From positions 62,001 through 126,000 of the forward strand of contig NZ_JAINVZ010000018.1 in the NCBI RefSeq assembly GCF_019890615.1: 64,000 nt of DNA, read 5' to 3'. Origin of the DNA: Streptantibioticus parmotrematis (GTDB lineage: Bacteria > Actinomycetota > Actinomycetes > Streptomycetales > Streptomycetaceae). A program made the translations under genes and the position numbers. Of this stretch, positions 61,552-64,000 are shown piece by piece (the first letter of the stretch is position 1; each line of letters starts with the position of its first letter). Below the pieces are notes generated by a model. The model did not search any database and was not told the origin of the DNA. It worked only from the letters and a program-made list of their open reading frames with translations.

Positions 61552-61968
61552 TCACGTTTTCCGCGTGCCGCCACCCCGTATCGCCGTCGTGCCCATCCTC
61601 ATGTCGCACTTGAGCAGGTACGCGGCGACCTCCTCCGGCTGCGCGCAGCGGGGGAGCGGGTCGAGACCGACCAGGACCGCTACCGGCCCGCCGTCCGCCA
61701 CGAAACGCGACCACTGCTCGCCCACGGTCAGCCGCACGTCGTGCGACCAGCCGTCCACCCGCAGCCGCGCACCCCGCGCGTCCAGCGTCACCCGCTCCCC
61801 GATGTACGGGATGCTGCGCGACGGCTCCGCCAGCCCCAGCGCGTCCGCGAAGTCCATCGCCTCGTACGCGCCCTCCGGATGCGCCGCCAGCAGGAACGCG
61901 ACCTGCCCGATCGCGGTCCTCTCCAGCCACGACCACGTCGCCAGCGCGTGGATGTCCTCCGGCGTCAC
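61552..61968 (-). CDS. Hypothetical protein coupled to an ATP-binding regulator
   Basis: A 138-residue protein beginning MTPEDIHALATWSWLERTAIGQVAFLLAAHPEGAYEAMDFADALGL. The GTG at 61968 overlaps the stop of the upstream ATP-binding gene (GTGA), so the two are translated together. I do not recognise the family; the middle is beta-rich (YIGERVTLDARGARLRVDGWSHDVRLTVGE) and the end is acidic then basic. It belongs to the whiJ-like module by position. Confidence 0.72.
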   Translation of the reverse strand: MTPEDIHALATWSWLERTAIGQVAFLLAAHPEGAYEAMDFADALGLAEPSRSIPYIGERVTLDARGARLRVDGWSHDVRLTVGEQWSRFVADGGPVAVLVGLDPLPRCAQPEEVAAYLLKCDMRMGTTAIRGGGTRKT

Positions 61969-62402
61969 CCGTCCACCTCGGACTTCAGCACGAACCACAC
62001 CTCTTTGCCCGGCGCGCCCTCCGGTGCGGGAATCGCACCCCAGGCGTGCGCCGTCTTGCTCAGCAGAAACATCCCCCGCCCACTCTCCGAGAGGAAGTCC
62101 GGCTCGCGCACGACCGGAAGCTCCGGCTCCTTGTCGCTCACCGAAACCCGGATCCCATCCGCGATCCTACGCAGCGTCAGCACGCATTCCGGTGACTTCG
62201 CGTGTTTGTGGACATTGCTGAGGAGTTCCGTCACGCCCATCGCGGCGGGGCGTGCGAGGTCCTCGACCTCCCAGGCCCGCAACTGCGCGCGGACGATACG
62301 GCGGACGACGGCAAGGGCGTGCGGGGCGGCGTCCAGGGACAACCGGCAGTGTGAGGCGCTCAGTTGGACGGGAGCGTCGATCGGGGGAACTTCGGCGTTC
62401 AT
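61965..62402 (-). CDS. HATPase_c (RsbW-like) ATP-binding regulatory protein
   Basis: A 145-residue GHKL ATPase: N-box VTELLSNVHKHA, G1 VSDKEPE-like and G2 SGRGMFLLSKTA. Such small ATPases accompany XRE/DUF397 genes in many streptomycete copies of the whiJ/abaA locus, but no sigma factor partner is known. Start set at ATG 62402; a GTG at 62420 is possible. Divergent from the XRE gene, 123 nt apart. Confidence 0.83.
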   Translation of the reverse strand: MNAEVPPIDAPVQLSASHCRLSLDAAPHALAVVRRIVRAQLRAWEVEDLARPAAMGVTELLSNVHKHAKSPECVLTLRRIADGIRVSVSDKEPELPVVREPDFLSESGRGMFLLSKTAHAWGAIPAPEGAPGKEVWFVLKSEVDG

Positions 62403-62525
62403 GTACTCAAGTAACCTCACGGCGCGTTACGGTCGCCAGACGCTGAGGTGGTACGGCGCGGATCGTGCGGTTGGCACCGCTGCCCGTGCTGCCGTGTGCG
62501 GGGCGGTCGTGGTGAGGAGTACGAG

Positions 62526-63341
62526 ATGGGCGGCAGGCATGACCCGGTGTCGATCGGCCTGGTCATCTTCGGAAGTCAGCAGCGTGCGTTGCGTGAGCTC
62601 GCCGGGTTGACGCAGGCGGAGCTCGGCAAACGGATCATTTGTTCCGAGTCCCTGGTCCGCATGGTCGAGCGCGGCGAGCGGCGCCCCAAGCCCGCTTACC
62701 TGAAGGCGGCGGACCGAGCACTGGAGGCACGTGGTCTGCTTCTGGTGGCTGCGAAGCACCTGGACGACGAACGCTACCCGACGTGGTTCGTGCCGTACCG
62801 GCAAACGGAGGCCGAGGCCGTCGCCTTCAACGCCTATGACTCGAACGTCGTGAACGGACTGTTGCAGACCGAGGAATACGCGCGCGCTGTCCTCATGGCA
62901 GCCTGCCCGTCCTTCGGAGACGCCGAGCTGGAACAGCGCCTGGCCGCTCGGATGGATCGGCAGAGCTTGCTGGCGCGGGCGGAGCCGCCGATGATGGCGT
63001 TCGCGATGGAGGAATGGGTGCTGCGGCGCCCTATCGGAGGCCCGGCGGTGCTCAAGCGCCAACTGCACCGGCTTTTGGAGGTGGGCGAGGCACGTCATGT
63101 CACGCTGCAAGTCATGCCCATGGACAGCGAGACACATGCCGGGCTGGACGGGCCCCTGCACCTGATCACCCTTCCGGACGGGCGTCGACTGGGCTACGTG
63201 GAAGGGCAGGCGGGCAGTTCGTATGTCACGGATCCGGGCGAACTGAGCGCCCTGGAGCAGCGGTTCGGCAATATTCGCGCACAGGCCCTCAACGCGGAGG
63301 CATCCCTGTGTCTCATCGATCGTCTCGCGGGAGAACTATGA
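62526..63341 (+). CDS. XRE-family regulator with DUF5753 domain (WhiJ/AbaA-like)
   Basis: A 271-residue DNA-binding protein: HTH_31/XRE domain (about 15-70; LRELAGLTQAELGKRIICSESLVRMVERGERRPK) and a DUF5753 domain (about 95-265; TWFVPYRQTEAEAVAFNAYDSNVVNGLLQTEEYARAVL, and EWVLRRPIGG). Proteins of this kind pair with a DUF397 protein and act in development and antibiotic control in Streptomyces. ATG 62526 follows GAGGAG. It overlaps the first DUF397 gene by ATGA. Confidence 0.93.
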   Translation: MGGRHDPVSIGLVIFGSQQRALRELAGLTQAELGKRIICSESLVRMVERGERRPKPAYLKAADRALEARGLLLVAAKHLDDERYPTWFVPYRQTEAEAVAFNAYDSNVVNGLLQTEEYARAVLMAACPSFGDAELEQRLAARMDRQSLLARAEPPMMAFAMEEWVLRRPIGGPAVLKRQLHRLLEVGEARHVTLQVMPMDSETHAGLDGPLHLITLPDGRRLGYVEGQAGSSYVTDPGELSALEQRFGNIRAQALNAEASLCLIDRLAGEL

Positions 63342-63601
63342 CCAGGCATTCCGGTGAAGAGACCGCCTCCAGGCGGTCGCAGCCTGACCTCAGGGGTACC
63401 GCGGAATACCGTTCCGCCGAAGTCGCCCTGAAGTGGCGGAAGTCGACTCACAGCGGTACCCAGGGCGGTGCGTGCGTCGAGGTGGCCGCCTGCCCCTCGG
63501 TTGTCCATGTTCGGGACAGCAAGGACCCTGACGGCCCCGCCCTTACGTTCGGGGCGGAGCAGTGGTCTGCGTTCGTGCGCTTCGCCGTACAACAAGGCTG
63601 A
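63338..63601 (+). CDS. DUF397 protein, copy 1 (with unusual N-terminal extension)
   Basis: An 87-residue protein; the ATG overlaps the XRE stop. The DUF397 core WRKSTHSGTQGGACVEVAACPSVVHVRDSKDPDG.ALTFGAEQWSAFVRFAV is complete. It is preceded by 32 extra residues ending EVALKW, a stretch that in copy 2 is the end of a first repeat (CVEVALEW), so copy 1 looks like a duplication product that lost the first repeat. DUF397 proteins bind or antagonise their XRE partner. Confidence 0.88.
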   Translation: MTRHSGEETASRRSQPDLRGTAEYRSAEVALKWRKSTHSGTQGGACVEVAACPSVVHVRDSKDPDGPALTFGAEQWSAFVRFAVQQG

Positions 63602-63625
63602 GCGTCCCCTCAGCGAGAGGTGACC

Positions 63626-63868
63626 ATGAGCGAACTCGTGTGGTTCAAGTCCAGCTACAGCGGTAACGAGGGCGGCCAGTGCGTTGAAGTCGCCCTGGAA
63701 TGGCGGAAGTCCACGTACAGCGGCAACCAGGGTGGCGACTGTGTCGAGGTCGCCGCCTGCCCCTCTGTCATCCACATTCGGGACAGCAAAGATCCTGACG
63801 GTCCGGCCCTGGCGTTCGATCCCGCGCAATGGTCCGCCTTCGTGGGGTTCGCCGTGCGGCACGGCTGA
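63626..63868 (+). CDS. DUF397 protein, copy 2 (with duplicated 20-residue motif)
   Basis: An 80-residue protein. The family motif occurs twice in a row: WFKSSYSGNEGGQCVEVALE then WRKSTYSGNQGGDCVEVAAC, an exact 60-bp offset (63641 and 63701). The rest, CPSVIHIRDSKDPDGPALAFDPAQWSAFVGFAVRHG, is the usual ending. ATG 63626 follows GAGAGG; a GTG at 63620 is in frame. It is 24 nt after copy 1. Confidence 0.88.
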   Translation: MSELVWFKSSYSGNEGGQCVEVALEWRKSTYSGNQGGDCVEVAACPSVIHIRDSKDPDGPALAFDPAQWSAFVGFAVRHG

Positions 63869-63891
63869 GCGGCCTCCATCACGGAACTCAT

Positions 63892-63920
63892 CGGGGGAGC
63901 GGTCCTTGACCGCTCCCCCG
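63892..63920 (+). terminator. Terminator after the DUF397 pair
   Basis: CGGGGGAGCGGTC pairs with GACCGCTCCCCCG around a CTT loop. Nothing further is seen to the end of the window. Confidence 0.85.
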
Positions 63921-64000
63921 ACCCCGCCCGCTCAGGCCAACCGGAGGGCCCCCACCGGTCCGCCGGGAAAACCCGTTGCGAGCGACCCGCCTCGGATGGC

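Follow-up and report, generated by a model that had tools for sequence, protein, structure and literature searches.

One XRE regulator gene in the genome of Streptantibioticus parmotrematis is followed by two BldB-like DUF397 genes that differ in the number of a 20-residue motif: the downstream gene (copy 2) encodes the motif twice in tandem, whereas the upstream gene (copy 1) encodes it once and, judging from a remnant in front of the intact motif, very probably descends from a two-motif gene. Comparison of DUF397 sequences from many actinobacterial loci indicates that family members carry between one and four motifs and that this number has changed repeatedly. Our overall reading, to which we assign a probability of about 0.55, is that this is a WhiJ/BldB/AbaA-type locus in which copy 1 is an eroded two-motif form, and that motif number may tune oligomer size or the DUF397-to-XRE ratio. 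Coordinates given without a label refer to the window, that is, the whole 64,000-nucleotide stretch analyzed (contig NZ_JAINVZ010000018.1, positions 62,001 to 126,000).

The features of the locus are collected in Table 1. By gene content and order it is of the WhiJ/BldB/AbaA type, with two DUF397 genes after one XRE-DUF5753 regulator; whiJ/bldB/abaA paralogue loci with the same anatomy have been described (PMC10294661, PMC4255298; this and all later citations refer to parts of the papers). The regulator combines the N-terminal XRE HTH with the C-terminal DUF5753 domain of a WhiJ/Hpb-type partner, adjoins a DUF397 gene, and also matches PF01381 in Pfam. Both DUF397 proteins belong to PF04149, copy 1 scoring 82.6 bits and copy 2 116.9 bits against a curated cut-off of 24 bits, and both resemble BldB in their C-x-E and RDSK signatures and in the neighboring WhiJ-like gene. 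The ATG of copy 1 overlaps the XRE stop codon (ATGA). Copy 2 starts 24 nt past the copy 1 stop codon, and a sequence just upstream of it, GAGAGGTG, resembles a ribosome-binding site by eye. The 14-bp inverted repeat behind copy 2 is not followed by a T run; the segment 63866-63940 folds at -43.2 kcal/mol (z -5.57), and a matching palindrome lies at the same place 3' of the copy 2 counterpart in G001, the one further genome that was available from the genus (here called the sister species).

On the other side of the regulator, the adjoining HATPase_c-type gene corresponds to the AbaA-like third gene of WhiJ clusters. It may start at ATG 62402 or at GTG 62420, and its ATG form matches PF13581 with 30.1 bits against a Pfam cut-off of 27.4. 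With the GTG start, codon 3 would be TTA (62403-62420, minus strand), in a stretch that is identical in the sister species. TTA is a rare codon and is bldA-dependent in Streptomyces. TTA codons have been reported in AbaA-like genes (PMC4255298). Elsewhere in the S. parmotrematis genome (G000), runs of five and four single-motif DUF397 genes were observed at C12:314338-315293 and C12:435403-436160, respectively.

Table 1. Features of the XRE-DUF397-DUF397 locus (window coordinates)
Feature	Position	Strand	Remarks
AbaA-like HATPase_c_2 gene	61965..62420	-	divergent from the XRE gene
WhiJ-like regulator gene, HTH_31 + DUF5753	62526..63341	+	PF19054 7.6e-49, PF13560 1.3e-10
Copy 1, DUF397 (BldB-like) gene with one intact motif	63338..63601	+	PF04149 2.2e-23, one stretch
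Scar left by motif 1 of copy 1 (RSQPDLRGTAEYRSAEVALK)	63374..63433	+	36/60 nt identical with motif 1 of copy 2
Intact motif of copy 1 (WRKSTHSGTQGGACVEVAAC)	63434..63493	+	49/60 nt to copy 2 motif 2
Copy 2, DUF397 gene with two motifs	63626..63868	+	PF04149 4.4e-34, two stretches
Motif 1 of copy 2 (WFKSSYSGNEGGQCVEVALE)	63641..63700	+	53/60 nt identical with sister-species motif 1
Motif 2 of copy 2 (WRKSTYSGNQGGDCVEVAAC)	63701..63760	+	41/60 nt, 14/20 aa to motif 1
14-bp perfect inverted repeat 3' of copy 2	63891..63921	+	terminator-like end of the XRE-DUF397-DUF397 unit

A preliminary description of this DNA had reported an exact 60-bp duplication in copy 2. The W-KSSYSG-GG-CVEVA motif is indeed present twice, in frame and at an offset of exactly 60 bp, but the exactness is confined to spacing and frame: the two units agree at only 41/60 nt and 14/20 residues, so the repeat must be old. 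Tandem Repeats Finder returned no array between 63300 and 64000 even at score 30, and the near-identical head-to-tail DNA units of a recent variable-number tandem repeat are absent from the locus. The low identity of the units and the lack of an array rule out an exact DNA duplication. The sister species has a two-motif gene at the position of copy 2 (dS 0.35 and dN 0.126 for copy 2 between the species), and its motif 1 agrees at 53/60 nt, so the doubling predates the species split. Motifs 1 and 2 of copy 2 differ at dN 0.29 and dS 1.17, and the conserved residues W, K, S, G, C and E are retained in motif 1. Between the species, motif 1 shows six nonsynonymous changes and one synonymous change, too few to decide on purifying selection.

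Copy 1 had been described as carrying a single motif with a scar before it, and the scar proved to be real. It matches copy 2 motif 1 at 36/60 nt in register, compared with 12-19 matches when the two are shifted by -6 to +6 codons. Among 60-mers of the window outside the locus, none reached 36 matches to copy 2 motif 1 (0/63,250 on the plus strand and 0/63,100 on the minus strand, 0/126,350 in total), the best having 35 and 33, respectively, and 36 was not reached in any of 50,000 codon shuffles. When the conserved EVALx end is left out, the signal is weaker: agreement over the first 45 nt is 23/45, a value reached by 42/63,250 45-mers on the plus strand, 43/63,100 on the minus strand and 17/50,000 shuffles. 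Between copy 1 and copy 2, dN is 0.63 and dS 0.41 in the scar, as against 0.112 and 1.09 in the core (Fisher p 5e-6, with nonsynonymous counts rounded by hand). These sequence comparisons indicate that the outer motif of copy 1 was eroded in place by point changes and that the core stayed under selection. The remnant lies in register without a gap, which rules out a clean deletion of the motif. Because the reading frame from 63338 to the copy 1 core offers no further start-like codon except a CTG at 63428, the scar is presumably translated in frame.

The history first proposed for the two genes was duplication of a two-motif gene followed by loss of the first motif in copy 1. Descent from a two-motif gene is very probable, but duplication in place is not the whole story. 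In a protein tree of the cores (79 rows, 56 columns; according to the program's warnings, columns were few and the bootstrap had not settled), copies 1 and 2 are sister genes (99/82), as that history supposes, and they adjoin copies 1 and 2 of the sister species (91/87). Support for the sister relationship is weak, however, in a DNA tree of 29 rows (92/36), where trees holding together copy 2 of both species (p-AU 0.41) or copy 1 of both species (p-AU 0.40) are not rejected. Over the core, copy 1 is identical to its own copy 2 at 133/171 positions, to copy 2 of the sister species at 131/171 and to copy 1 of the sister species at 115/171, and copy 2 is identical between the species at 143/171. 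Synonymous divergence is about 1.09 between the two copies within S. parmotrematis and 0.35 for copy 2 between the species, so the split of the copies looks older than that of the species; for copy 1 between the species it is saturated.

When window positions 62456-63600 are compared with L075:2727-3784 of the sister species, the XRE gene and the first DUF397 gene are strongly diverged, with outer flanks of 91-93% identity. The upstream conserved block, which includes the HATPase gene, extends over 2475 bp at 93% identity and the downstream block over 858 bp at 91%; from the middle of copy 1 through copy 2 and beyond, identity is 84%. The XRE protein is 44% identical to its positional counterpart. 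It forms a clade (100/98) with its three best-scoring XREs, each directly followed by a two-motif DUF397 gene, which adds to the case for a two-motif ancestor of copy 1; the fourth and fifth best (56% and 55%), outside the clade, have a one-motif DUF397 gene directly behind them. The XRE of the sister species is closest, among the 136 loci searched, to one from G008 (61%), where the DUF397 gene is of the two-motif form (L071), and its next four matches (52-53%; L191, L167, L168 and L166) stand before one-motif genes. The XRE-proximal DUF397 gene is now one-motif in both species. Given the low identity of the XREs relative to the flanks and their differing relatives, the XRE and the proximal DUF397 gene have in one lineage or more been exchanged, or have diverged, together as a single block. 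This pattern suggests allelic replacement of a regulator module, and module exchange or gene conversion was probably part of the history of the locus. Divergence, lateral transfer and possible gene conversion have been noted in the DUF397 family (PMC4239341).

Copy 1 itself may then have a different source: it could have arrived with its XRE as a foreign module, the core being homogenized later by gene conversion from copy 2. The 44% identity of the XREs between conserved outer flanks, the two-motif DUF397 genes that accompany the members of the XRE clade, and the frequent clustering of tandem DUF397 cores by locus in the tree all fit such an arrival. The scar does not fit it as well, being nearer to the first motif of its own copy 2 (36/60) than to those of the three XRE-clade genes (31, 28 and 27); the first motif of the sister species ranks between them (33). 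Forcing copy 1 to group with the XRE-clade DUF397s in the DNA tree costs 18 log units, although at p-AU 0.088 an origin from the XRE donor alone is disfavored and not rejected. We consider the foreign-module scenario a real possibility, but not the probable course of events, and prefer descent of copy 1 from a two-motif gene with erosion of its outer motif.

A clean change by one unit was found at another locus. A whiJ-type locus of S. parmotrematis (L192; C30:23000-28500) is collinear with one of the sister species (L076; C22:606500-611500), the XRE and the downstream DNA being 90-91% identical, and its first DUF397 gene has one motif in the former and two in the latter, a clean 60-bp in-frame difference. 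The single unit agrees with the first motif of the sister species at the left diagnostic sites and mostly with the second motif at the right ones. The two units of the sister species (cut one codon downstream of W for the dN/dS comparison) agree at 42/60 positions and have diverged further from each other than the species have. The comparison favors loss of a motif in S. parmotrematis by recombination between units, with gain in the sister species as the alternative. Truncated or frame-broken DUF397 genes were also observed in the sister species, at about 2822-3022 of L076 and at L195 (C11:2012806-2013129); the counterpart of the former in L192 is intact.

A genome-wide check for doubled motifs, as proposed in the preliminary description, revealed extra motifs in 6/37 DUF397 genes of S. 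parmotrematis. In 16 Streptomycetaceae genomes, inspection of PF04149 rows by eye gave 43 genes with extra motifs among about 393 DUF397 genes or remnants, a tally that counts remnants as genes and misses weak motifs. By the same inspection, 12/16 genomes have at least one multi-motif gene, and none was seen in the other four (G009, G010, G016 and G017). The sample is non-random, as G006, G013, G014 and G025 were picked after matches to this locus; together with G000 and G001 they contribute 21 of about 154, and the remaining genomes (G007-G010, G016, G017, G022-G024 and G026) contribute 22 of about 239. In a set of 80 loci, biased by the two-motif query, 43/90 DUF397 genes were multi-motif by pattern and 69/105 by profile, and multi-motif genes were present beyond Streptomycetaceae, in Actinomadura, Nonomuraea, Saccharopolyspora and Glycomyces. 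A DUF397 gene of Glycomyces buryatensis (L142:4857-5123) contains 3.9 copies of a 69-bp unit with a 98% match, near-identical head-to-tail units that mark it, on sequence grounds, as a recent tandem expansion of the variable-number type. The 79-row tree, for which only the last motif and the tail were used and whose rows were chosen largely by similarity to this locus, comprises 51 multi-motif and 28 single-motif rows; it needs at least 13 changes between the two states on the best topology, compared with 23 on average for shuffled labels, and 4 are forced by well-supported branches. Gain and loss of the extra motif, as one unit, appear to have happened time and again in these bacteria. In a plasmid search a single record came up, its match covering 55 bp of a DUF397 gene.

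Where DUF397 genes stand in pairs, the extra motifs may sit in the downstream gene, which we regard as a lead only. In 21 of 39 adjacent pairs the downstream gene carries more motifs than its upstream neighbor, in 17 the two are equal, and in 1 the downstream gene carries fewer. The set is biased (loci largely found by a two-motif query) and non-independent (related species recur); two of the 21 (L113 and L157) are doubtful calls. Whole-genome tables inspected by eye yielded unequal pairs at 6 vs 1 for the downstream-richer arrangement in six genomes, four of them picked after matches to this locus, and no unequal pairs in ten further genomes.

According to a published description, the DUF397 fold consists of four strands plus a helix, C-x-E lying in strand 2; the authors also proposed multimers (PMC7159879). 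The repeated N-terminal unit probably corresponds to the first two strands, including C-x-E. In two-hybrid assays of S. venezuelae proteins, BldB hetero-oligomerizes with most of its paralogs; WhiJ9 binds DNA (PMC10294661), and WhiJ is the presumed target of SCO4542 (PMC6262351, PMC4255298). Most likely, the two DUF397 proteins of the present locus would associate with one another as well as with the WhiJ-like XRE, and would switch XRE DNA binding at the divergent promoter region that the XRE gene shares with the HATPase gene. An extra motif would add contacts per DUF397 chain, and motif number would tune oligomer size or the DUF397-to-XRE ratio. The preliminary description had suggested that a doubled motif may offer two binding surfaces to the XRE partner; a putative increase in oligomer or XRE valency is the role that we favor for the extra motif, with moderate confidence. 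A more far-reaching version, which we hold to be speculative and rather improbable, casts the 20-residue unit as a modular valency dial: recombination would add or remove it in frame, giving WhiJ-like regulators partners with one to four contact units, and at loci with two DUF397 genes the XRE-proximal copy would be kept low and the distal copy would accumulate units.

AlphaFold models (mean pLDDT 66 for the two-motif protein and 60 for a three-motif protein) are too weak to show a contact role. The two-motif model averages above 70 over residues 41-80 alone; all preceding residues, among them the first half of the intact motif, are at 46-55. The extra units of the three-motif model are at about 30-42, and over both models the extra motif spans about 30-50. 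As the first half of the intact motif is equally low in the two-motif model, low confidence does not single out the extra motif there. A PDB sequence search gave no match at E up to 10, and Foldseek on the weak models gave 157 matches at E up to 10, the best at E 0.77 and none at 0.001. No natural XRE-DUF397 fusion was found among 90 DUF397 frames in 70/80 loci, the longest open frame being 285 aa.

The frequent changes in motif number would also be expected if the extra motif were selectively near-neutral and arose incidentally, when 60-bp repeats slip or recombine in a regulatory family that evolves fast, to be carried along with no effect on function. The outer motif of copy 1 decayed freely, motif 1 of copy 2 changed between the species mostly at nonsynonymous sites (6 vs 1), and its loss from copy 1, together with a probable loss at the C30 locus, means that the motif can be dispensable. 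A near-neutral unit is harder to reconcile with a doubling that predates the species split (41/60 between motifs 1 and 2, 53/60 for motif 1 between species), with the retained W, K, S, G, C and E of motif 1, and with dN 0.29 against dS 1.17 between the motifs, and we regard near-neutrality as unlikely. XRE-DUF397 pairs have furthermore been proposed, from gene order, mobility and co-evolution, to be type II toxin-antitoxin systems (PMC2701414, PMC4239341), which would make copies 1 and 2 toxins. Fourteen such pairs overexpressed in S. coelicolor displayed no type II toxin-antitoxin behavior (PMC10364602), nor did Scr1/Scr2 behave in this way (PMC6262351), and we consider a toxin role very improbable. 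We retain the reading in which motif number may tune oligomer size or the DUF397-to-XRE ratio.

The locus type and tandem DUF397 genes are already known. Most members of the family consist of just the DUF397 domain, in 100 residues or less (PMC10294661); relative to such a protein, copy 2 is similar in size with an extra N-terminal motif, and copy 1 has an eroded one. WhiJ-SCO4542 and Scr1-Scr2 of S. coelicolor likewise comprise an XRE gene and then a DUF397 gene, with control of the XRE by the small protein proposed; unlike them, the present locus has two DUF397 genes of unequal motif number after one XRE. XRE-(n)DUF397 units of S. clavuligerus also have tandem DUF397 genes after one XRE, but within-protein repeats like those of copy 2 were not found in the part of the source consulted (PMC8269248). 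VMAP-ternary-linked DUF397 proteins share with our case the multiple DUF397 copies, the idea of multimers and the four-strand and helix description, whereas the corresponding part of that source describes repeated genes, not a repeated 20-residue unit (PMC7159879). In mainly open-access literature, represented by parts of PMC13097080, PMC10294661, PMC2701414, PMC10364602, PMC6262351, PMC4239341, PMC4255298, PMC8269248 and PMC7159879, we found no description of variation in motif number inside DUF397 proteins.

Some BldB-like DUF397 proteins govern sporulation and antibiotic production, and their action on WhiJ-like regulators is the question at stake. Natural proteins with one to four units, a one-unit difference between species and an eroded copy beside an intact one provide material for mapping the contacts of these proteins part by part.
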